Source: an uncultured Maribacter sp.
Lineage (GTDB): Bacteria > Bacteroidota > Bacteroidia > Flavobacteriales > Flavobacteriaceae
DNA length: 64,000 nt
Direction: 5' to 3'
NCBI GenBank assembly: GCA_947498505.1
Contig: CANMKG010000001.1
Span: forward strand, 930,001-994,000
The notes beneath the pieces were generated by a model. That model saw nothing but the letters and a program-made list of their open reading frames with translations, did no database searches and was not told where the DNA came from. The position numbers and the translations under genes were made by a program. Positions 37,001-50,067 of the stretch are shown here, in pieces (within the stretch, counting starts at the first letter, position 1; each line of letters opens with the position of its first letter).

Positions 37001-37396
37001 GGTAGGCAAATAGGTACCTGGTCTATGATGCTGAGGCCAGTTAAATTCTACACCACCACTAAGCCAAGGTCCCGCCAAACCTACGAGCGCTGGTTTTATA
37101 ACGTCCTGTTTATAGAAAAAATCATAATTATCATTGGTCTTATCTTGTGCTTCAAAAATACGTCCTCCAATTTCTGGCAGAATGGATAGACGTACATATT
37201 CATTTTCTAGTACAGCTTCTTTATACTTCTGGTCTATGGCATGGTCGTAAACCTTATCTACAAATGGTACTGGATATACTTTTCCGTTGGAACCTTGATA
37301 TACCCTTTTTTCAAAAAAAACAGGGTTTATTTCTGGTTTTCCCAACGCATAAGTTGGTATGATTCTATCGTGAATTTTTACACTTACCTTACTCAA
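34055..37396 (-). CDS. Cytosolic DUF5107 and TPR protein
   Basis: A 1113-residue protein without a signal peptide. Residues 1-400 are the DUF5107 domain, beta-rich like galactose-mutarotase and GH-associated super-sandwich folds. Conserved-looking residues include NEYVRLSILPEIGGRIFEA, SGGVEFNWPQHHRPG and QFWWGYKNLGP. Residues 480-1110 are about ten TPR repeats (AAIELGKSKLKQGRFDEALA and similar). Such proteins appear in polysaccharide loci of Bacteroidota, and the super-sandwich fold hints at a sugar-active enzyme; I do not know a proven reaction. Its start lies 28 bases after the MFS gene end, so both are one transcript, and the product would meet imported sugar in the cytosol. Confidence 0.8.
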   Translation of the reverse strand: MSKVSVKIHDRIIPTYALGKPEINPVFFEKRVYQGSNGKVYPVPFVDKVYDHAIDQKYKEAVLENEYVRLSILPEIGGRIFEAQDKTNDNYDFFYKQDVIKPALVGLAGPWLSGGVEFNWPQHHRPGTYLPTDVHIEHESDGAKTIWMSEYDPLNRLKGMHGLRLRPDSSLIELRARLFNRTPFIQTFLWWANVAVEVHDKYESFFPTDVHYVADHAVRAQSSFPLAENDYYGIPYHKRKGANDLRRYSNIPVPTSYMVCETNYDFFGGYDHKTNGGFIHVANRHIAPGKKQWTWGNSEFGRAWDRELTDKGGPYFELMAGVYTDNQPDFSYLAPYETKTFSQFWWGYKNLGPVQNANNDLAIRLKVQQDNKLDLGVASTKEIENIDIILRVGDRQTKIKNVSISPNQPWKDISKSILSGEENDISLTVIDKLDNELLAYHQKETSKTRNRITAKEPFEAQQVETNSELNLIGEHLELYRHPTRYPETYWKKALERNSKDSNAAIELGKSKLKQGRFDEALANFNSAITTLTSYHPNPQTGEAHYFAGLTYLFQNKLEQAHSKLYKATWSYTWRSAANYLLANIESKKGNISLALEHIEASLDTNRQNNKAYILKAILLHEIDRKEEAKNTLKEVLKTDALDQWAKFELARISGDYQTFLESSRNDAQTILDITFDYTDAGNYKAAIELIELHHDNLIPDSAVPNPLKQSTITWFVLAWLYARNNEVDKSKLFLEKASGLNPDYCFPSRVHEQIVLEWVIKNTTNPALAAYGLGNYLLDKKRHKEAIGSWEIAAKKDMQYGTLYRNLGIAYWNNEQDGEKARKAFEKAISFSPDDMRILFEYDQLRKKMNDSPKERLAFIETKLEAILERDDFSVELAALYNFTGQYDKAMDVMINKKFHPWEGGEGQVIRQYTYTCLKKGQNALASNDAEKALEYFNMAENTPDNLGEKYHPLQAKAHLKYWQGRALKTLGKIKEAEVCFKQSATEQGDFVDMAVNAYSELSYYSALSLKELGENKEATDLLISIRAYAENKLKETVKIDYFATSLPLLLVFEEDLQQRNSWENKYLIGLTELGLGNKNKALQLFNEVLHLNAMHVAAHRFKNKITVEISLP

Positions 37397-37424
37397 AATA
37401 TTACTATTATTTTTAATGTAATTA

Positions 37425-38810
37425 TTAGTTTTTGGTTAACTCTTCTTCTATTTCTTCTAAGGTTTTCCCTTTGGTTTCTGGTAATTTTTTAAGTGTAAAA
37501 ATGAAACCTAAAAAGCATATAACTCCATATAACCAAAATGTACCTGAAGTCCCTAAAGTTTCGTTCAATATTGGAAATGTATAAGTCAACAAGAAGCACG
37601 CTGACCATAGCGCTACTGTAGCTACTGCCATTGCTGCACCACGAACTCTATTTGGGAAAATTTCGGATAGTATTACCCATGTTACTGGTGCTAACGACAT
37701 GGCGTAACAACCAATGGATATAACAACCAAAAGCAACAATGGCCACCCAGAAATACTAAAATAATAGGCAAGTCCCATAACAGCATAAATACCTGCTAAA
37801 CCTCCTGCTCCAATAAGCATTAAAGCACGTCTACCTAATTTATCAACGGTATAGATGGCAATAAAAGTGAATATAAGGTTTACACCTCCAGTAACTACAA
37901 TATTAAAAAGGATGTCTGACACACCATAACCAGCCGCTTCAAAAATCTCTTCCGCGTAATTAAAAATAACATTGATACCACACCACTGCTGAAAAGCTGC
38001 TAAAACTATCCCTATGATTAATATAGGTCGTAATTCAGGTTTCAATAGCTGTCTAGCACCTACTTTCTTAACTGAAGAAGTTAAGGTTTTTGTTACATTG
38101 AATACTTCTGTTTTAGCATACCCTACTCCTCCAATTTTTTCCAAAATTTTACCCGCTTTATTTTCATATCCGTTTTGCATTAACCAACGTGGACTTTCAG
38201 GAACAAAAAACATGAGAATAAAGAAAAGTCCCGATGGAATAATTTCCGCCCAAAACATCCAACGCCATCCCCATTGCCCATTCCATGAAGCCAATATCTC
38301 AGCATCTGTTGCTGTTGTAGCTACAGGTTCTGCTATCATCAAATTCACAATTTGCGCTAACATAATACCAATAACTATTGTAAGCTGATTAAGCGATACA
38401 AACTTGCCTCGCGTTTTCGCTGGTGCGACTTCCGCTATATACATTGGTGATAAATTTGAAGCGAGACCAATACCAATTCCTCCTAAAATTCTATAAAAGA
38501 TGAACAAATTAAAACTTGATGTTGCTCCTGTTCCTAACGCAGAAACTACAAATAACAGAGCAGAAAAAATCAACAATCGTTTTCTACCAAATCTATCACT
38601 AAATACACCTGAGGTAATAGCTCCAAAGAGACACCCAATTAAAGCACAACTCATTGCCCATCCTTGTAGAGAAGGAGATTGTGATATATTAAAAAACTTT
38701 TCGTAAAAAGGTTTTGCTCCTCCAATCACCACCCAATCGTAACCAAAAAGTAATCCTCCCATAGCTGACACCATGGAAATGGTGAAAATGTATTTCGTAT
38801 TTAGTTTCAC
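37425..38810 (-). CDS. MFS sugar porter (SP family, XylE/GLUT-like)
   Basis: A 461-residue inner-membrane transporter with 12 predicted helices, importing monosaccharides with protons. SP-family motifs are GGLLFGYDWVVIGG near residue 18, SDRFGRKRLLIFSA near residue 71, the PESPRWLMQNGY motif before the middle loop near residue 205, and DKLGRRALMLIGAGG near residue 323, with PETKGKTLEEIEEEL at the end. The substrate is not readable, but the neighbours make galactose or fucose plausible. It seems the only intact transporter of the locus, as no SusC/SusD pair remains. Confidence 0.9.
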   Translation of the reverse strand: MKLNTKYIFTISMVSAMGGLLFGYDWVVIGGAKPFYEKFFNISQSPSLQGWAMSCALIGCLFGAITSGVFSDRFGRKRLLIFSALLFVVSALGTGATSSFNLFIFYRILGGIGIGLASNLSPMYIAEVAPAKTRGKFVSLNQLTIVIGIMLAQIVNLMIAEPVATTATDAEILASWNGQWGWRWMFWAEIIPSGLFFILMFFVPESPRWLMQNGYENKAGKILEKIGGVGYAKTEVFNVTKTLTSSVKKVGARQLLKPELRPILIIGIVLAAFQQWCGINVIFNYAEEIFEAAGYGVSDILFNIVVTGGVNLIFTFIAIYTVDKLGRRALMLIGAGGLAGIYAVMGLAYYFSISGWPLLLLVVISIGCYAMSLAPVTWVILSEIFPNRVRGAAMAVATVALWSACFLLTYTFPILNETLGTSGTFWLYGVICFLGFIFTLKKLPETKGKTLEEIEEELTKN

Positions 38811-39177
38811 TTAAACTTAATTTAGTATGACTTGATATTTTGTAAAATAAACGAAAACGTACTTTATAAAAAATGGAGTGGTTAACTAAATTAATGGACA
38901 ATCTTACTGTAGTTTGAATTCTAACATAAGCATAAGTCCTGTTCGGTGTAACTTCATATAATTATTCTAAAAGCAATTTTTGAAAAAGTTTTGTTTAAAT
39001 AAAGTCGCTCGAAATTGGTGTTTTATGTCATCAAAAGAACGTCACATGCTTCTGGGATAATTTAAAAAACATTGGATTATTTATTAGTACTACTAACCGT
39101 ATTTTACTCTAGATTGTTCTGCTATTACAAATCCGAGTAATTTTTTAGGGCAATCTTATTTTATCACAAAATGATAA
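38811..39177. other. Gene-free gap between MFS and GH27 genes
   Basis: This 367-base stretch holds the MFS gene's upstream region and the GH27 gene's 3' side. No intact gene, promoter box or terminator was recognised. On the minus strand one short frame (about 38894-38953) reads NRTYAYVRIQTTVRLSIN, faintly like the C-terminal region of SusC receptors, but it is too short to call. Confidence 0.3.
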
Positions 39178-40776
39178 TTAATTTACCCGAATGAAGATTA
39201 CACCATGAGATTGTACTATTGCTGGAAAACTGCCTTTGTAGTTACCAATGTCTTTCTGTCTCCAAAGGTCTCTTACATTTTTAACGCCTTCAATACCTAT
39301 ATCTTTCCAGTTTAATGTAATTTTTTGTTCTTCTTCTTTCAAATTAAAAAGACCTATAGCTTTACTACCATCTGACATTTCTTTAACTATTATTTCAAAA
39401 TCATCATCATAGTAAATAGATTTTCCGGGAATTCCTTTTGCATCTTGATTAACTGCTAGCACTTCTGAATTTGTTAATAGTTTTATGGTAAACTCATCCA
39501 TTCTTTCTATTGGACATCCAATTAATAAAGGCGATGCCCACAAACACCACAATGAGATATGAGAATATTGTTCATCAGCTGTCAAACGTGATGGGATTGG
39601 ATTTTTACTTTTCGTATTTACTTCTCCTATTACCAACATATCGGGGTCTGGAAAATGACCAGGTGCTCCTGCAAAACCTTCTTTCATCCAATCTCTATGC
39701 ACTTTCCACTCGTCTCTAATACTTTTATGAATACCTTCTCCGTCCCATCTATCTTTTAAATCACCGTAGGTTCTAAAACAGTTTACTATTTTTCCAAATA
39801 AGTCGGCATGCTCTAACGGTGCTGTATTAGAAATAGAATAAACAATGTCCCTACCACTATTTTTTAAAGCTTCTGCCATTCTAATTGTACTAGCTGGCTC
39901 ATTGGGGTTCCAGTCATACTTTAAATAATCTATTCCCCACTCTGCCCATTGAGTCGCATCATTAACATCAAAAGTATATTCTCCTAAACGAAGGTTAACT
40001 CTTCCTGGTTTTAAGTGTCTATCATCATAAGATTTATCCCAATGGCCATTTTCATCAGCGCTGGAACCTCCTACACGACCAGCATATGTTGTAATCCAAG
40101 GCGAAGAATATACACCTACCTTTAGCCCCATCTCATGAATTGTATTACTCATGGTCTCCATATCAGGAAATTTGATAGAATCTGCTATAATGGCATTGTA
40201 TTTTCCTCCTCTATGAGATTGCCAACCGTCATCTATATTTATGTAAGACCAACCATAATTTTTAAGTCCTTTATCCACCATTGCGTTAGCAGAAGCTATT
40301 ACATTTTCTTCTGTAACATATTCACCCCAACAGTTCCAACTGTTCCAACCTAAGGGGGGTGTTAAACAAATAGTTTCTCCAACCTTAATGGTAAAACTTT
40401 TTTTAGTTTCTCCTAAATCATTTTTTGCAACCAAGATTAGGTTGTAATTTTTTATAACGTTGTCGGCGATTTTTCCTCTTATTATACCAGATTCACTATT
40501 AACGGTTAAACCTTCTGGAAGGTTCTCAACTCTATAGGTCACTGGTTGCTTTCCTGTTGCGGGAATGGCATATAAAAAAGGAGAGCCTGGTCTCACTCCA
40601 AAAACCGAAGCTCCATGTATTTTAGGTTCGTCAACTTCATCGGGAGTCAAAATATATTTACCCACTCCTACTTCCGGAGTGTAAGTTTTTGTTTCACCTT
40701 TTTGACCACACGAGGATACAAACAATAAAATTAGTACTAGTTTTAATACGGGTTTCAAACTTCTTCTTAATAACAT
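39178..40776 (-). CDS. Alpha-galactosidase, family GH27, lipoprotein
   Basis: A retaining exo-enzyme that removes terminal alpha-galactose. The 532-residue protein is a predicted lipoprotein (lipobox FVSSC, Cys23). Residues 40-130 form a putative Ig-like domain (ENLPEGLTVNSESGIIRG). The GH27 barrel follows, with TPPLGWNSWNCWGEYVTEE near residue 139, INIDDGWQ near residue 179, and the nucleophile Asp288 in DYLKYDW; the acid/base is probably Asp339 in FRTYGDL. A C-terminal beta domain ends the protein. It may also accept beta-L-arabinopyranosides, as some GH27 enzymes do. It has its own upstream region with candidate regulator sites, and the decayed gene pieces lie beyond that. Confidence 0.9.
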   Translation of the reverse strand: MLLRRSLKPVLKLVLILLFVSSCGQKGETKTYTPEVGVGKYILTPDEVDEPKIHGASVFGVRPGSPFLYAIPATGKQPVTYRVENLPEGLTVNSESGIIRGKIADNVIKNYNLILVAKNDLGETKKSFTIKVGETICLTPPLGWNSWNCWGEYVTEENVIASANAMVDKGLKNYGWSYINIDDGWQSHRGGKYNAIIADSIKFPDMETMSNTIHEMGLKVGVYSSPWITTYAGRVGGSSADENGHWDKSYDDRHLKPGRVNLRLGEYTFDVNDATQWAEWGIDYLKYDWNPNEPASTIRMAEALKNSGRDIVYSISNTAPLEHADLFGKIVNCFRTYGDLKDRWDGEGIHKSIRDEWKVHRDWMKEGFAGAPGHFPDPDMLVIGEVNTKSKNPIPSRLTADEQYSHISLWCLWASPLLIGCPIERMDEFTIKLLTNSEVLAVNQDAKGIPGKSIYYDDDFEIIVKEMSDGSKAIGLFNLKEEEQKITLNWKDIGIEGVKNVRDLWRQKDIGNYKGSFPAIVQSHGVIFIRVN

Positions 40777-40980: not shown

Positions 40981-41400
40981 TTATAGATTTACCCCTGTTC
41001 CTTGCAAAGAACTATAATGTTCCCATATAATTAACCAAGGGTCTTTTGTTTTATGTTGAAAATCTTTCATTTTAGCTTTCATAAATTCCAAAATGTTTTT
41101 ATAACTATCATCACTAGCCAAATTGTTAGATTCACTAGAATCTGTTGATATATTGAATAATTCAAATTCTGGTCTAAACATATAATCTTTAACAGTTCGT
41201 TGCCCAAAATATTCTTCATCATTTCTGTAAATAGCCTGTCATGTTGATGCAGCCCATAAATCAGAAGCAAAAGGATAATACAATCTATAGGCTATATTCC
41301 ATATTAATTTGTAATCACCATCTATTACAACACGCATGGGGTAATACATTGTAATTTCATGAAAGGTATGTGATGCATAAATTTTATCTCCAAATTCCTT
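40981..41400 (-). pseudogene. Sulfatase C-terminal remnant (heparan N-sulfatase-like, S1 family)
   Basis: The last 140 residues of an S1-family sulfatase are readable: [46 protein letters not shown], then a TGA stop (41239-41241) where Trp is expected, then QAIYRNDEEYFGQRTVKDY and FELFNISTDSSESNNLASDD to a normal end. The catalytic N-terminal domain with the Cys/Ser that becomes formylglycine is absent. At the 5' side it is joined to a fucosidase remnant near 41382-41400. The gene is dead. Confidence 0.8.
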
Positions 41401-41610
41401 ACTTCCATTGCCAGTTCTCCTAAAATATCTTTTTTAGCTTCCATGTTTACTGAATTCTATTTGGTGAATTTGGAATTGTACATTGCAAAAGCATCATGAT
41501 GTTCGGCTACAGGGATTATGTATCTTGCTCCTGATTTTTTTAAAGAGTTTAGCCTATTTTTTAGCATCAAACTTTTCTGCTTTAAACATTCGGATGAAAT
41601 CTTTATACCC
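41382..41610 (-). pseudogene. GH29 alpha-L-fucosidase internal fragment
   Basis: Conceptual translation gives GYKDFIRMFKAEKFDAKK, a TAG stop (41554-41556) in place of Trp, AKLFK, a frameshift in a run of seven T (41535-41541), SGARYIIPVAEHHDAFAMYN, SKFTK, a second TAG (41457-41459) in place of Trp, and [19 protein letters not shown]. It aligns with residues of the intact GH29 at 44193 (GYKDFIPMFKAEKFNAKEWA and NAVNMGPKRDLVGEIASAV) but is diverged, so it is a paralogue, not a recent copy. Both ends are fused to other remnants. Confidence 0.82.
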
Positions 41611-41795
41611 AAACTATTTTTAGTAACAGAACCGTAGCCAATAGCCACAACTTCGTCTAAGTCATCAGCGGTTACATCCAATGCAACATTAATAGTAATT
41701 AAAACTTATTCTTTAAGGAGCTACTTGACGTTAATTTTAGTAGTGATAAATTTTACCAAATAACGCTACATATTCGTTTTAACAGTTTTCTTCAT
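41611..41795 (-). pseudogene. SusC/TonB-dependent receptor N-terminal remnant
   Basis: From an ATG at 41793-41795 the minus strand reads MKKTVKTNM, a stop, RYLVKFITTKINVK, more stops, then ITINVALDVTADDLDEVVAI and GYGSVTKNSL. The LDEVVxIGYGxVxK sequence is the signature between the carboxypeptidase-like domain and the plug of SusC receptors. Most of the carboxypeptidase-like domain and the whole barrel are missing. The frame joins the GH29 fragment at 41610/41611. Confidence 0.78.
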
Positions 41796-41807: not shown

Positions 41808-43715
41808 TTAGTTAAATGTTAATTTCTGCATTCTCTCTTCCGTTTTAAGGATATGATTCGCTTCACCCTTATATACATTGTTTTTGAATTCTATATTTTT
41901 TGAGGACTTTACGGTAATAGCATGCTCTTGACTGTGAAGCTTTGGAAAAGTCTTGGAAATAGATATTGTATTGTTTGAAAACCTAAGGTTATTAGTATTG
42001 GCTATTTCAAGAACTAAATTATCAAAATGGTTAAATGTATTCCCTTCTATTTTAATATTATTAAAAGCTATATTATCATTGTCATCATCTGTAACAAAGC
42101 GTATTACGCCTCGATTATAACCACTATAATTACAATCTTGAAAAACATTATTTTCAACAGTGATATTAGAGCCACTACCCGACTCATACCAATGTCCACT
42201 TTCTACTGGAATTAAAAGAGCTTCCATTTCTGTACTGAAAAAGTTATTTCGAATTATGGTATTATTCGGAGATGACAACAAAAGTCCTCTGGCTCTATTA
42301 CCGCTGATATCGCAGTTTTCAACGAGTAACTTATCTGGATAGCCATTTAAATTTTCCAATAGATCTCCTACTTTTAGTGTACTGGGAATAGCCTCGTTAA
42401 ATGTTATAATTTGATAACGGCTATTTATACGTTCTGTAGATTTAATTGTAATTTTCTCGTATGGCAAGAACGACTCGCTTAGTCTCACCAATCCAAGAGT
42501 ATCATTGGGCTTCCCTATTACAAAACCCTGTTGTTGAAAGTGTCCCATTCTTACTCCAATTGAATTCTCATCCAAAAGGTCTACTACTCTTTGGTAAGTT
42601 CCATGAACATTTGTAGCATCATCTAATTGATTATTAAACTTGCAGTTTTTTAATTCCACCTTTCCTCTACAACCTACAAAATGTGTTGCATCGGCGGTGG
42701 TAGAAACCATGCGGCCATTCGAAGGCGTAATAACTACTTTATCTAATATTAAATCTTTTGAATTTTCAGCAATTAATCCCATTCCTCCTGCATGATGGAT
42801 AGTTACATTATTCATGTTAAACCCATAAGTATTAGTTACCCTAACGGCTGGCGCTAATCTATTTAAATGTTGTTCTCCCTTACAAACTAATACCTTGCCA
42901 ACAGGGGGCATTTTTTTACCATGATTAAAAATTCTAACCACCCCAGGTTCAACTTCCTTAGCACGTAATCTATGCTCTCTACCTATTATTCTCTGACTTG
43001 GTGCAATTGGATCTAGTTTATATTTATAATTAGATACCTGTTTTAAAGACTTTTCTCTGCTCGCTAAGTTGTTATATAAAGTAAGTGGTGTATATGATTC
43101 TGTATCGTACGCTATAGCTTTTCTATCAACGTCATATAACATAGCTTGCCCTAGGTTATGTTCGTATGATTCTTTGATGAAATATAATTGCTCATTACGT
43201 ATTTCATACGGATAAGTGTTGGAGATTTTCATATCAAATGTTCCTTTTTCTTGGTCATTAGCAACTATTAACCCTTCACTATGAAAAGGTATCTCCCAGT
43301 CTATCTTTAGATTTTTAAGGGATATATTTTGAGATTCATTTATGAGAAAAGGAATCATTTTACCATGAAAAATAAACGTGGACCCCTGACCGTCAATAAC
43401 TAATTTTTTCATGTCAAATATTGGAAAAGCCGTTTTTATGACCACATCATTATGATTTGATATATAACAATACTTTTCTAACCCCTTGTCCGGATAAAAA
43501 TGATATGTTCCTTTCTCAAACTTTATCTCTGAAATAGGCCTTTCTTTTGCAGCCAATATTCGTTTTAACACATCTGGAGTTGCATCGCTTTTAATATCGT
43601 TTTTAAACAATACAGTTTCTGCTTCTATTTTTTTTGCAAAACATCCTAAGTTCAATACAAGTAAGACACTTCCTAAAAATAAAATGGTAATTGATTTTCT
43701 TTTTTTTGATAACAT
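41808..43715 (-). CDS. GH110-type alpha-1,3-galactosidase (right-handed beta-helix)
   Basis: A 635-residue exported protein (probable lipoprotein, LVLNLGC near residue 25) with a right-handed parallel beta-helix: DMKKLVIDGQGSTFIFHG, NNVTIHHAGGMGLIAENSKD, NTIIRNNFFSTEMEALLIP. The motif LDDATNVHGTY contains the adjacent acids Asp365-Asp366, matching the paired catalytic Asp of GH110, an inverting family that removes terminal alpha-1,3-galactose from blood-group B-type and some algal glycans. I recognise the overall sequence as the alpha-1,3-galactosidase-related family. Substrate in this organism is inferred. The SusC remnant begins only about 13 bases beyond its stop. Confidence 0.8.
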   Translation of the reverse strand: MLSKKRKSITILFLGSVLLVLNLGCFAKKIEAETVLFKNDIKSDATPDVLKRILAAKERPISEIKFEKGTYHFYPDKGLEKYCYISNHNDVVIKTAFPIFDMKKLVIDGQGSTFIFHGKMIPFLINESQNISLKNLKIDWEIPFHSEGLIVANDQEKGTFDMKISNTYPYEIRNEQLYFIKESYEHNLGQAMLYDVDRKAIAYDTESYTPLTLYNNLASREKSLKQVSNYKYKLDPIAPSQRIIGREHRLRAKEVEPGVVRIFNHGKKMPPVGKVLVCKGEQHLNRLAPAVRVTNTYGFNMNNVTIHHAGGMGLIAENSKDLILDKVVITPSNGRMVSTTADATHFVGCRGKVELKNCKFNNQLDDATNVHGTYQRVVDLLDENSIGVRMGHFQQQGFVIGKPNDTLGLVRLSESFLPYEKITIKSTERINSRYQIITFNEAIPSTLKVGDLLENLNGYPDKLLVENCDISGNRARGLLLSSPNNTIIRNNFFSTEMEALLIPVESGHWYESGSGSNITVENNVFQDCNYSGYNRGVIRFVTDDDNDNIAFNNIKIEGNTFNHFDNLVLEIANTNNLRFSNNTISISKTFPKLHSQEHAITVKSSKNIEFKNNVYKGEANHILKTEERMQKLTFN

Positions 43716-44192: not shown

Positions 44193-45797
44193 TTACTTTG
44201 TGCTTTGTGGTATAACGTTTTTAAAGCTTAGTTTTATAGGGTAAGCAAATTTGTACTTAGGCTTTTTTCGTAGAAAAACTTCAAGCCCTTCGTTTTTTTG
44301 CTTATAAGATAATTCCCTTTTACTACCCAATAGTTGAATACTTTCTAAATCTTTTAAATTTACATTTGCCAATGATTTTATTAGGACCTTACCATCCTCC
44401 GGCCAGTCTAGAACTGTGGCATATAACACATTGTTTTCTTTGTTTCTTGTAAACCGTACATCTCTTGATGTAGCCATATACTTTTTATGTCCATGCTCAT
44501 CCCTTTCAACCCAATGCTCCCCTAATTCACCAAAAACTTCATAAGGACGTGTAGCATACACCGCTTCTCCACAAATACGCAACCATTCTCCTAATTCTAG
44601 CATTAACTTTTTTTGATCCTTTGGAAAACTCCCATCTGCCCTAGGAGCAAAAGACAGCATAAGTACTCCTCGTTTACTAATAATATCCATAAATTGATCT
44701 ACAATCATATTAGTAGGTTTAACTGGTATGCCTTCTCCATATCCCCAGTTATGCCCTAAATAAACTGATTCATCTGTTTGCCAAACCATATCATGTATAT
44801 CATCAAAGGCACCATGTTCAAAATCACGAACAGCACTTCCTGGTTTAAATGTTTTTTGGTTTTTATAGTTTAGTACAACATTTGGGGAGCCATAAAAGCC
44901 TTGACCATTTTCAACCGCATTATTATAATAATAAGCAGCAAATTCTTTACGCCAAGGTTCCCAAACAGTAGGGTTAATTCCCCAATCAAAATAATACAAA
45001 TCCGGTTGGTACATGCTAGCTAATTCTTTAGTACGCGCTAGCCATCTGGTTAAATCTCGATTACTAGGCTGTACCAAATTCCATCTCGATCGTTTTAACC
45101 AATCATTTCGTTTTTCATTAACCCCTATTCTAATAGTATCTGAGCTTTTGGGAATTATAGGATTTCCGTATAAATCTTCATTTTCAGGGTTCGTTGCATC
45201 ATAACGGTTAATATGATTCCATTGAAAAAACGCATGATTCCAAGCCGTATGGTTTGACACGCCAAATTTCATTCCTTTTTCTCTCACTGCAGAAGCTATT
45301 TCTCCTACTAAATCTCTTTTGGGGCCCATATTAACAGCGTTCCACTTACTTAACTTAGTATCCCACAAACAAAACGTATCATGATGCGCAGCCATCATTG
45401 TAAAAAACTTTGCTCCTCCTTGTTCGAATAAATCTGCCCATTCTTTAGCATTAAATTTTTCTGCCTTAAACATGGGAATAAAATCCTTGTAACCAAACTC
45501 CTCTGGAGGCCCATAAGTATTATTATGATGCAGATGCGTTGCATACCCTTGATTATTTCTACTGCTTTGTCCTTTCTGACTATACATCCATCGTCCATAC
45601 CATTCTGCTGCATGATCTCCTTTAAAGGCTGGTACAGAATAAACTCCCCAATGAACCCAATATCCCAGTTTTGCATCTTCATACCATTCTGGAGCTGCGT
45701 AATTTTTCAATGACTCCCAATTAGCTTCATACTTCTTTTGGGCATTAATTTTAGTAATACAAAAAACAATAGCGAGAAAAATAATTTTTAGTTTCAA
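44193..45797 (-). CDS. Alpha-L-fucosidase, family GH29
   Basis: A retaining exo-enzyme that removes alpha-L-fucose. From a TTG at 45797 the 534-residue protein starts with a signal peptide (KLKIIFLAIVFCITKINAQ). The longer frame from 45857 adds 20 residues unlike a signal peptide. Landmarks are EWYEDAKLGYWVHWGVYSVP near residue 36, GGAKFFTMMAAHHDTFCLWD near residue 130, and the nucleophile Asp271 in PDLYYFDWG. The C-terminal beta domain begins near residue 430. Without an obvious acid/base Glu motif, the subfamily is uncertain. It lies 145 bases after the regulator gene on the same strand, with candidate operators between. Confidence 0.88.
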   Translation of the reverse strand: MKLKIIFLAIVFCITKINAQKKYEANWESLKNYAAPEWYEDAKLGYWVHWGVYSVPAFKGDHAAEWYGRWMYSQKGQSSRNNQGYATHLHHNNTYGPPEEFGYKDFIPMFKAEKFNAKEWADLFEQGGAKFFTMMAAHHDTFCLWDTKLSKWNAVNMGPKRDLVGEIASAVREKGMKFGVSNHTAWNHAFFQWNHINRYDATNPENEDLYGNPIIPKSSDTIRIGVNEKRNDWLKRSRWNLVQPSNRDLTRWLARTKELASMYQPDLYYFDWGINPTVWEPWRKEFAAYYYNNAVENGQGFYGSPNVVLNYKNQKTFKPGSAVRDFEHGAFDDIHDMVWQTDESVYLGHNWGYGEGIPVKPTNMIVDQFMDIISKRGVLMLSFAPRADGSFPKDQKKLMLELGEWLRICGEAVYATRPYEVFGELGEHWVERDEHGHKKYMATSRDVRFTRNKENNVLYATVLDWPEDGKVLIKSLANVNLKDLESIQLLGSKRELSYKQKNEGLEVFLRKKPKYKFAYPIKLSFKNVIPQSTK

Positions 45798-45905
45798 AGT
45801 GTATTCTTTTATTATGTTCCGTTTATAATCTAAATAAAGACCAAAAATCTTTACCAAGCTAAGAAAAAAACAATACGCGAAATATGTGTATACCTTAATA
45901 ATTAA

Positions 45906-45942: not shown

Positions 45943-48900
45943 TTAAGAATGTTTCTTTTCACTATCAGCGGCATACTTTCCGGGAGTTGTTCCGTATTTT
46001 TCTTTAAACAGTCTAGTGAAGTGAGTTCTACTTTTAAAACCAGTTCGTAGCGCTGCTTCTTTAACAGAAAGCTGCTCCTGTACCAAAAGTTCTGCTCCTT
46101 TTGTTATTCTATACAGCTTAAGTAATTCAAAGGGTGTATGATTCGTTAAATCCTTCACCTTTTTATAAAACAAGGTTCGGTTTAAGAACAATTCTCTTGC
46201 AAATTTATTTATATCCAAATCTTGATTGTCTAAATTTTCAGCCATCAAATTATATAGCTTCTCTAAAAATGCGTTATCATTTGCATTGTTTTTATTATTC
46301 TCCTTGGTTAATGGAATACCAATTTGATAACGCTCTCTTAATTGCTTTCTGTTTAACAATAAAGCTTCTACTCTAGTTACCAAATGCTCCATATCAAATG
46401 GCTTTTTTATATACGCATCAGCCCCATCTCTTAACCCTCGAATTCTATCTTCACTATTTACACAAGCCGTTAATAATATTAATGGAATATGACTTGTTTT
46501 AACATCCGATTTTACACGTTTACATAAATCCAATCCATTTAATTCAGGCATTAACAAATCACTAATTATAATATCTGGCCATTCATTTTCCATCGCATCT
46601 ATACATTCTTGACCATTAACAAACGTTTTTACATTAAAGAATTTTGACAATGATTGAGACACAAACATGCGCATATCTAAATTATCCTCTGCATAAAAAA
46701 TAGTAGCATTCATAAAGTCCGAAGCTACTTTAATATCTCCAATACCTTCTTTAATAATTAAATTTGTGTTTTTTTCCAGTGCTTTCTCAGCTTTAAGTAA
46801 TATTTCACCTTGTTCCGTTTCAGTATCACCTTTTTGCTTTTTAACAATGGGCAATCTTACTGTTAAGGTTGTACCTTTTCCTACTTCACTTTCCGCATTA
46901 ATGTAACCGTAATGCATTTCCACAAGACGCTTGGAAAATGCTAGTCCAATACCCGACCCCCCAATGTAAGATTCATGCCTTTTGTGCGATTGGTAAAATC
47001 TTTCAAAAATATGCTGCAAATCTTCACTATCAATACCTCTTCCCGTATCTCTAACAGATACTATTAAATCCTTATCCTCTCTACTTATTTCTACTAAAAC
47101 CGAATCTCCTTGTTTTGTATATTTAAAAGCATTATTAAGTAAATTGTTAAATACTTTTTCCAATTTTTCTTTATCCGCTGACACATAAACATTTTCAGTA
47201 TTATGCTTAACCGTAAGGGTTTTACCCTCAGTTTTAGCCATAAACTCAAAATCTCGTATAAGTTCCTCTATATATGGATTAAAATAAAAATGAGAGTAGT
47301 TCATTTTTAACAACTCAAAATCAGCTTTTTGAAAATCATGAACCTGATCTACTAGCTCTAGTATTTTTTTAGATTGACGCTGAACAAGCTTAAGTTTATC
47401 TATAGCCCCAAAATTCTTTTCAAGTTCTTTTATTAATAAATTTATTGGACCAGATATGAGTGTTAAAGGCGTTTTTATTTCATGCGAAATATTAGAAAAA
47501 AACCTCAATTTAGCAGCGTTTAAATACTTCACATTGTCGACTTCCATTTGCTCTATCTCCACCTTATGATTTAACGATTGAATCCTAAAAATCACTTGAA
47601 CGACAAAAAAAACAATAAGTGTTGTAGCTAAAAAATATAAAAAATAAGCCCATTTTGTTTTCCAAAAAGGAGTTGAAACTGTTATTTTTAATGATTTAAC
47701 TGGCGTCCATTCATTTAAAGAATTTGAAGCCGAGGTATTAAGTACATATTCACCAGGCTGTAGACCACTAAAATAAATTGTTTTTTCATCAGAAGGTATT
47801 TCAATCCATTCTTCGTTTAGTGGTAATAACTTGTACCTGATATAATGGTTTTTGGGGTTAGAAAAATGTAGACTTGTTAGTTCTAATGAAAAAACATTCT
47901 CATTATGCTTTAGTTTTACTTCTTCAGTTTCAGCTAACCGATTACTTAACAACACTCTACCTCTTATTGAATCTCCAACTTCAACCAGTTTATTAAACAA
48001 CTTGAAGTTTCCCACTTCAAACTTTGGTAATGTTTCTTCGTTAAAAACATCTTCTGGTTTAAAATAACAAAAACCATCTAAACCCGAAAAAATCAAATAC
48101 CCATTCTTCAAATGCTTGGAGGTGTACCAAAAATCTTCAAAAGGTAAACCATCAGAATCTGTAAATCTCCTAAAAGTATAATCTGTTGTATTAAATTTAT
48201 TTAAACCAATATTAGTTGCAATCCAAAGGTTATTGTCTTTATCATACAACATGCTTTTTATAACGTTATTAGACAAACCTTGCTTTTCTGAAAAAGTTTC
48301 AAACTTAAAATTGGTCTTGCTTTCTATTAATTTACAAACTCCACCTCCTTCTGTACCTATCCATAATTCCTTACTTGGTAGCCTAATAATAGAACTCACA
48401 AAATTACTTGAAAGTGAGTAAGGGTTGTTATCTTCAGCAACGTATTGTTTGATTTTAGTTTCATGCAATTTATCTTTAGCATTAACCCTAAAAAGACCAT
48501 CTTTATCCGTTCCAATCCAGATATAATCATATAATGGGTCTACGTATACACAACGTACAAAACCCAATTTCTTAGTTTCAAAAAATACATTATCGTTTAT
48601 AGTTTCTACATTTAGTATCTCATTTTTATCATTTAAAACAACTTTAAAAACACCTTGATTACCAACAAGCCAAATGTTACCATCTTTATCTTCAGTTATA
48701 TCATGAAAATGTATCTGAGGAAATAATGGTGGCTCTGAGTTATTTACTATTTCATAATTTTCTTCATTAGATTTTATCCTACATAATCCAACATTTGAAA
48801 TTCTACACCATACATTTTTTCTAGAATCTAAATACACTTTACCAAACTCTAAACCACTACTATTAAAGGCATTGTATTCGACATCCTCAAAAGTCTCGGT

Positions 48901-50067
48901 TTCTGTATTAAAAACAGAAACGTCTCCTCCACTTGTCGTTAGGTAAACTCTATCTTTATCAATTAGGGAAATAGTGGTTACGTTATTTGATTTTAAACCA
49001 TTCATAAACCCCATGTTAACATTGTACTTCCGAAACGAATTTTCAACCATGTTAAATTTAAAAAGTCCTTCGTTGAATGTACCATACCAACAATTACCCG
49101 TTGTTGTCTCATAAAAACAGCTACTTTTTACATACCCCGAATTATGTTCAAAATAGGAAACATCATCGCTGATAGAATTTAAAATATCAGCACTATTAAT
49201 TTGAATAAACCCATCATCTATTATGCCCAACCATAAAGTTCCTGAAGAATCTACCATGCTACTATTAAACCTATAGTCAAAGAACAGTTCATTACCAATT
49301 GTAAAGCTGTATTCATTAGGGTTAGTATTATTTTTATCGATTACGACTAATCCATATTCTAAGGTAACCAGTACCTTATCATTAATACTTAAAATTGAAT
49401 TACATGAAAATACTTTGTCTCTTAATATTGGGGTGAAAATTTCATCTTTTACATTGAAAACAAAAAGTCCTTTTGATGTAGCATATAAAAAATTAAACTC
49501 ATCCAACATAACCCCTTGAAAAAATTGAATTTCCTCCTCCGCTTCATGTTTCTTAGGTCTATACTTCCCCTTTAAATTATAGTTGTTATCAAAAACTAAA
49601 ATACCGGCTTCCTGAGTAGCACACAAAACCAAACCATTTTGTGTTGAAATAATGTTTCTTACCGTTGGTCCATTTAAACCCTCATTAATCAATTTATTTG
49701 AATACAAATTAGCAAACCTATTATTAGATAAATCAAATAGATTAATCCCATCATCTGTTCCTATCCAAATCTTATTATTTTGATCTTCAAATAAAGTTCT
49801 TACCCGATTACTTATAAGAGGTTTTTCATCAACGCTGTTTTTGTAAATGTTAAACTCGTAACCATTATATACACTTAAACCTTCATAAGTTCCATACCAT
49901 AAATAGCCATTTGAAGCTTCTAAAATAGAAGTAATACCATTATGAGATAAACCATCAGAAATAGTTAATTTTAAGCTTGGTTCTAAGGTATTTTTTTGAG
50001 CAGAGATACTAATACAAAAAAACAAAAGTAAATATCTATATATAAACTTATGCTGTTCTTTTGTCAT
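45943..50067 (-). CDS. Hybrid two-component system regulator (HTCS)
   Basis: A 1374-residue single-chain sensor and regulator of the type that controls polysaccharide loci. The order is a signal peptide; two seven-bladed propellers of Reg_prop repeats (WYGTYEGLSVYNGYEFNIY, KIWIGTDDGINLFDL and many more; about 25-700); a Y_Y_Y domain (about 710-795); a membrane span (about 807-827, YFLYFLATTLIVFFVVQVIF); HisKA with the phospho-acceptor His in FSNISHEIKTPL (about 861); HATPase (NNLLNNAFKYT, GGSGIGLAFSKRL); a receiver domain with Asp near 1168 (IISDLLMPEL); and an AraC-type DNA-binding domain ending RTHFTRLFKEKYGTTPGKY. Its ligand is probably a released oligosaccharide, and its targets the flanking hydrolase genes; both are inferred from location. 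Confidence 0.95.
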   Translation of the reverse strand: MTKEQHKFIYRYLLLFFCISISAQKNTLEPSLKLTISDGLSHNGITSILEASNGYLWYGTYEGLSVYNGYEFNIYKNSVDEKPLISNRVRTLFEDQNNKIWIGTDDGINLFDLSNNRFANLYSNKLINEGLNGPTVRNIISTQNGLVLCATQEAGILVFDNNYNLKGKYRPKKHEAEEEIQFFQGVMLDEFNFLYATSKGLFVFNVKDEIFTPILRDKVFSCNSILSINDKVLVTLEYGLVVIDKNNTNPNEYSFTIGNELFFDYRFNSSMVDSSGTLWLGIIDDGFIQINSADILNSISDDVSYFEHNSGYVKSSCFYETTTGNCWYGTFNEGLFKFNMVENSFRKYNVNMGFMNGLKSNNVTTISLIDKDRVYLTTSGGDVSVFNTETETFEDVEYNAFNSSGLEFGKVYLDSRKNVWCRISNVGLCRIKSNEENYEIVNNSEPPLFPQIHFHDITEDKDGNIWLVGNQGVFKVVLNDKNEILNVETINDNVFFETKKLGFVRCVYVDPLYDYIWIGTDKDGLFRVNAKDKLHETKIKQYVAEDNNPYSLSSNFVSSIIRLPSKELWIGTEGGGVCKLIESKTNFKFETFSEKQGLSNNVIKSMLYDKDNNLWIATNIGLNKFNTTDYTFRRFTDSDGLPFEDFWYTSKHLKNGYLIFSGLDGFCYFKPEDVFNEETLPKFEVGNFKLFNKLVEVGDSIRGRVLLSNRLAETEEVKLKHNENVFSLELTSLHFSNPKNHYIRYKLLPLNEEWIEIPSDEKTIYFSGLQPGEYVLNTSASNSLNEWTPVKSLKITVSTPFWKTKWAYFLYFLATTLIVFFVVQVIFRIQSLNHKVEIEQMEVDNVKYLNAAKLRFFSNISHEIKTPLTLISGPINLLIKELEKNFGAIDKLKLVQRQSKKILELVDQVHDFQKADFELLKMNYSHFYFNPYIEELIRDFEFMAKTEGKTLTVKHNTENVYVSADKEKLEKVFNNLLNNAFKYTKQGDSVLVEISREDKDLIVSVRDTGRGIDSEDLQHIFERFYQSHKRHESYIGGSGIGLAFSKRLVEMHYGYINAESEVGKGTTLTVRLPIVKKQKGDTETEQGEILLKAEKALEKNTNLIIKEGIGDIKVASDFMNATIFYAEDNLDMRMFVSQSLSKFFNVKTFVNGQECIDAMENEWPDIIISDLLMPELNGLDLCKRVKSDVKTSHIPLILLTACVNSEDRIRGLRDGADAYIKKPFDMEHLVTRVEALLLNRKQLRERYQIGIPLTKENNKNNANDNAFLEKLYNLMAENLDNQDLDINKFARELFLNRTLFYKKVKDLTNHTPFELLKLYRITKGAELLVQEQLSVKEAALRTGFKSRTHFTRLFKEKYGTTPGKYAADSEKKHS

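Follow-up and report, generated by a model that had tools for sequence, protein, structure and literature searches.

Polysaccharide-utilisation loci (PULs) of the Bacteroidota bring together SusC/SusD, glycoside hydrolases, and sulfatases, and the locus in our window, by which we mean the whole 64-kb stretch of DNA analysed, shares with them a block of hybrid two-component regulator (HTCS), GH110, GH29, GH27, GH2, and MFS genes. Relatives of this locus add SusC/SusD and sulfatases, whereas the window copy is without both sulfatases of its sister locus and without the SusC/SusD pair that serves as a criterion of an active PUL. The other close parallel is the pseudogene remnant left by serial deletion, which the window matches in its truncations, short junction repeats, premature stops, and frameshift; unlike the usual examples, it packs three genes into 0.8 kb, and these are of two ages that a sister genome can separate. 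Dead bacterial genes are usually deleted without readable traces, so remnants that keep a readable order of loss are useful. Judged from sequence comparison, the region is very probably the scar of serial deletion in a PUL of a Maribacter-type flavobacterium. As a set of pseudogene remnants in a PUL under erosion the finding is of an ordinary kind, and its value is the order of events that relatives resolve. Among the papers listed on PUL pseudogenes and gene loss and on GH110 and carrageenan, PMC12549532 and PMC12323373 included, the titles and abstract openings named no such locus, which is no sign that none has been described.

The scar occupies positions 40981 to 41795 of the minus strand and holds leftovers of a SusC receptor, a GH29 (fucosidase family) gene, and a sulfatase. 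From 41795 the minus-strand frame begins MKKTVKTN, crosses three stops, and reaches ITINVALDVTADDLDEVVAIGYGSVTK. The features below are given relative to the sister genome G002 (uncultured Maribacter sp. isolate 4-549, contig CANLTE010000007.1), which belongs to the same genus as the window genome.

41616–41795, minus strand: SusC N-terminal remnant; the same fossil occurs in G002 (L016 9368–9544)
41619–41699, minus strand: TonB-box stretch of the SusC remnant, ITINVALDVTADDLDEVVAIGYGSVTK
41379–41627, minus strand: GH29 fragment, frameshifted and with two stops, about residues 132–209 of the 529-aa G002 gene
41554–41556, minus strand: TAG in the GH29 piece, TGG in G002
41535–41541, minus strand: run of seven T (plus-strand letters), one base longer than in G002, which frameshifts the GH29 piece
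41457–41459, minus strand: TAG in the GH29 piece, TGG in G002
40984–41393, minus strand: sulfatase C-terminal fragment with one stop, residues 350–485 of the 485-aa G002 gene
41239–41241, minus strand: TGA in the sulfatase piece, TGG in G002
40981–40983, minus strand: natural stop codon of the sulfatase fragment, retained

The sequence-only reading had SusC passing into GH29 at 41610 and GH29 into the sulfatase C-terminus near 41390, close to the overlaps of the aligned pieces at 41612–41627 and 41379–41393. Its three stops at expected Trp sites and its frameshift in a T7 run were likewise borne out by G002, which reads TGG at each site and has a run one base shorter.

Pfam finds nothing in the SusC piece, and its identity therefore rests on direct comparison. 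SusC proteins have a TonB-box-like motif, LDEVVxIGYG, ahead of the plug, and the remnant carries such a motif (LDEVVAIGYGSV). Against 13 SusC N-termini from behind GH110 genes, ITINVALDVTADDLDEVVAIGYGSVTK scores 53–93 (BLOSUM62), compared with 47 for the best of 1000 shuffles, and the TonB-box DNA aligns to one of these N-termini over 80 bp at 73.8% (E 5e-8). The codons ahead of it, a shortened start region with three stops, gave no significant match of their own, and would belong to SusC by frame and position. Because the window has neither the plug domain and barrel nor a SusD behind them (G002 still has a piece of the plug), this is a remnant and not a working SusC. The GH29 piece matches PF01120 (2e-23, profile positions 87–152 of 345, with letters typed across the frameshift) and is too short to hold a complete catalytic domain. 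The sulfatase piece has weak Pfam matches below the cut-offs (Sulfatase_C 0.0022, SGSH_C 0.0077) and is 89% identical to its counterpart residues in the intact G002 sulfatase, which matches PF00884 at 2.8e-47. Sulfatases of this family carry a formylglycine motif, C-x-P/A-x-R, which the intact G002 gene has as CAASR (residue 81) and the window's piece lacks.

We searched 60 relatives with the three pieces, scoring eight candidates per genome, and obtained matches in 19. The pieces were found in order but apart on one G002 contig, where the intact sulfatase and GH29 genes lie side by side between GH27 and GH110. Compared with G002, the window is missing four segments with a net sum of about 19.4 kb, of which the visible scar makes up the lesser share.

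41612–41627, junction 1: 485 bp net missing; the 8-bp AACTCTTT is common to both G002 arms, with one mismatch in the window
41379–41393, junction 2: 2064 bp net missing; G002 arms share AAATTT (6 bp)
39099–39108, junction 3, beside GH27: 13,971 bp net missing; G002 arms share TATTTTACT (9 bp)
37381–37436, fourth difference: a 948-aa G002 GH2 gene is absent (net 2843 bp), with no clear repeat where the flanks meet

Neither the larger loss beside GH27 nor the difference at 37381–37436 figured in the sequence-only reading. The 13,971-bp segment in G002 holds an FG-GAP protein, SusD, SusC, an AraC regulator, GH2, and a second sulfatase. At the fourth difference, where the 948-aa GH2 gene sits between the MFS and DUF5107-TPR genes in G002, either a loss in the window or a gain in G002 is possible. 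When the window genome was searched with the missing 14-kb segment there was no close copy among the best 40 of 144 and the best 40 of 130 candidates scored; the matches were short or distant, the best-scoring being 66% over about 384 bp and 70% over 206 bp. The best-scoring other matches in this genome were 37% identical to the G002 SusC and 32% to the G002 sulfatase, none of the 40 SusC matches fell inside the 64-kb window, and a search with the G002 SusD at E 1e-5 gave nothing there either. At three of the four junctions the G002 arms share repeats of 9, 6, and 8 bp, which suggests deletion by slippage or through microhomology; repeats of 6–9 bp in AT-rich DNA can arise by chance. The alignment of the window to G002 is collinear, with overlapping matches at the junctions, and supports serial deletion.

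If the assembler had misjoined pieces of separate genes, the junctions would be peculiar to this assembly, and we did see them in none of the seven other genomes of the genus (two of these had no match, G002 had the SusC fossil, and the other matches were sulfatase or GH29 homologues or short SusC-like stretches). Such a chimaera is nevertheless very improbable: the pieces have the order and strand of a single G002 contig, their flanks are 89–97% identical and collinear, no closely similar intact copy was found elsewhere in the genome, the SusC fossil is present independently in G002, and the stops and frameshift are not expected of intact genes.

The genes around the scar are intact. Their dN/dS values come from pairwise comparison and are no proof of selection since the losses.

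37425–38810, minus strand: MFS sugar transporter
39178–40776, minus strand: Melibiase_2 (GH27-type); dN/dS 0.11 and dS 0.120 against G002
41808–43715, minus strand: GH110-type (GLAA-B, beta-helix); 99% amino-acid identity, dN/dS 0.08, and dS 0.064 against G002
44193–45857, minus strand: second GH29; dN/dS 0.17 against G002
45943–50067, minus strand: HTCS; dN/dS 0.10 and dS 0.35 against G002

A recombination boundary at the junction was considered, with identity to G002 at 96.5% on the left, up to 41393, and at 90.8% on the right, from 41612, and was rejected because dS in the genes on either side is 0.12 (GH27) and 0.064 (GH110). The lower right-hand average is due to the second GH29 (dS 1.02), the HTCS (0.35), and a PKD gene (0.21). 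The second GH29 (44193–45857), at dS 1.02 and 74% amino-acid identity to G002 beside a GH110 at 0.06 and an HTCS at 0.35, looks like a gene replaced on its own by recombination.

The SusC remnant has a longer history than its neighbours in the scar. Of 40 GH110 loci taken from the genome collection, 23 have a SusC relative that starts no more than about 350 nt behind GH110; the 13 of these that were checked have open frames of 1024–1055 aa, and in two others of the 23 (L034 and L038) the relative was matched in two pieces. G002 carries the same fossil as the window, at 80% amino-acid identity, and shares two of its three stops, the third being a sense codon there. A second SusC piece lies just before the G002 GH29 gene, where GIPQENDSDIAPSYIESINILK matches the intact SusC plug DGIPQEGDPGIAPSDIESIDILK; at the DNA level this piece had matches to five SusC genes, with E no higher than 0.002, from 578–581 nt into each. 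Since G002 has the same fossil, with the two shared stops and the plug piece, the SusC loss precedes the split between window and G002, and the remnant is best read as the SusC linked to GH110, already gone when the two species separated. The loss of three genes proposed from the window alone is supported and divides into two ages, with SusC already a fossil in the ancestor shared with G002. GH29 and the sulfatase were cut and joined as proposed. SusC was not cut just once, because its fossil in G002 consists of non-adjacent stretches (TonB box and plug).

Polarised against the outgroup G026, 213 positions of GH29 gave 10 substitutions on the window branch, 1 on the G002 branch, and 3 unpolarised, and 396 positions of the sulfatase gave 8, 9, and 2, respectively. 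The window branch is enriched in changes at second positions (6/18 against 1/34, p 0.005) but not in those at positions 1 and 2 together (11/18 against 13/34, p 0.15), and an excess at positions 1 and 2 is seen in these stretches for G002 as well, where the copy is intact (6/10 against 4/28, p 0.01). This equivocal codon-position test, together with the 95–96% identity of the sulfatase piece to G002, could be accommodated if the fused stretch were functional now, for example as a regulatory RNA or operon spacer kept by selection. We consider this very unlikely, given that the pieces carry stops and a frameshift and that the SusC fossil differs from that of G002 at 23 of 195 aligned positions (11.8%), more than the GH110 dS of 0.064 and similar to the GH27 dS of 0.120, as expected of unconstrained DNA.

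G026 (uncultured Flavobacteriaceae YR2-618, CANNAN010000001.1) comes from another genus of the family and has, on one strand, HTCS-GH29-GH110-SusC-SusD and then GH29-sulfatase-GH27-sulfatase-GH2, with the second GH29 about 38 kb after that SusC. Identities between G026 and G002 are 79% for GH29, 86% for the sulfatase, 79% for GH27, 81% for the second sulfatase, and 77% for GH2, and G002 preserves the G026 order minus the stretch between SusC and GH29. The span from HTCS to GH27 is about 57.8 kb in G026, 13.5 kb in G002, and 10.9 kb in the window; measured from HTCS to the outermost GH2, it is 38.7 kb in G002 against 19.3 kb in the window. G004 and G007, two further members of the genus, carry relatives of the sulfatase adjoining an HTCS (71–72% and 51%) in a different arrangement, and a search of 80 kb from each showed no match to these GH29 genes. 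With GH29 and the sulfatase intact and side by side in both G002 and G026, the comparison with close relatives agrees with the suggestion that the locus once held a SusC, another fucosidase, and a sulfatase; for SusC, the frequent relative right behind GH110 points the same way. That these were lost by deletion plus point mutation is also upheld by G002.

Because G026 shares GH27-sulfatase-GH2 with G002, the window's absence of the second sulfatase and GH2 is a loss. The SusD, SusC, AraC, and FG-GAP genes of the 14-kb block are a possible gain in G002, and the extra genes of G026 could be gains. PULs are often horizontally acquired and G002 has more genes, yet the notion that the window state is old and that G002 gained GH29, the sulfatase, and the 14-kb block by insertion is scarcely credible, as the window has, just where they are expected, an inner portion of GH29 and the sulfatase C-terminus, which insertion would not leave, and the order GH29-sulfatase-GH27-sulfatase-GH2 recurs in G026, a member of another genus.

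Under serial deletion, the losses fall into two stages, the first resolved by one genome (G026) and the second by one (G002). In the first, before the split from G002, the SusC behind GH110 was destroyed, leaving its TonB-box and plug pieces, and the DNA from SusC to GH29 was probably lost as well, which for a G026-like ancestor would amount to as much as about 41 kb. In the second, in the window lineage, deletions of 485 and 2064 bp removed the rest of the SusC fossil, the two ends of GH29, and the sulfatase up to about residue 349, as comparison with G002 shows. The 14-kb deletion beside GH27 removed the second sulfatase and GH2, for which there is outgroup support, and may also have taken a second SusC/SusD pair, the regulator, and the FG-GAP gene, if these were present in the ancestor. 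The remnants also carry the three Trp-to-stop changes and the one-base insertion. G026, G002, and the window are three states of one locus, in which the order of importer, sulfatase, and glycosidase loss can be asked.

Relatives of the same two sulfatases are internally deleted or stop-bearing in Flavivirga aquatica (L059), Maribacter aquimaris (L065), and Gelidibacter salicanalis (L048), where the lesions differ from those of the window and GH110 and the SusC relative were matched nearly in full. Among sulfatases with at least 53% identity to the two in the 40 GH110 loci, 3 of 24 are decayed (two of the 24 being G002's own), against 0 of 19 GH2 genes (one being G002's own and one partial at a locus end), a difference that is not significant (p 0.24) and a count that rests on draft genomes. 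The pattern hints at a sulfatase decay bias in GH110 loci, a lead drawn from genome comparison. Because sulfatases have decayed independently in three other GH110 loci, there is also a hint that the erosion may be adaptive: the window would retain a scavenging set without importer or sulfatases (HTCS, GH110, GH29, GH27, GH2, and MFS) for oligosaccharides with galactose or fucose that neighbours release and that are already desulfated, and sulfatases and SusC/SusD would repeatedly be the first lost in GH110 loci. We regard this as speculative and rather unlikely. If the stripped locus works, finding glycoside hydrolases would by itself say little about whether the whole polysaccharide is used.

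The GH110 protein of the window had a match in nine plasmid records, the best at 61% identity among the five shown. The sulfatase of Flavivirga aquatica (L059 4334–5238) is without a stretch after about residue 214, where its frame then breaks. In Maribacter aquimaris (L065 5341–5880), only residues 1–52, 364–430, and 435–472 of the second-sulfatase relative were matched, near relatives of GH2, GH110, and SusC. Gelidibacter salicanalis has a short sulfatase piece with two stops (L048 7124–7282) near GH110.
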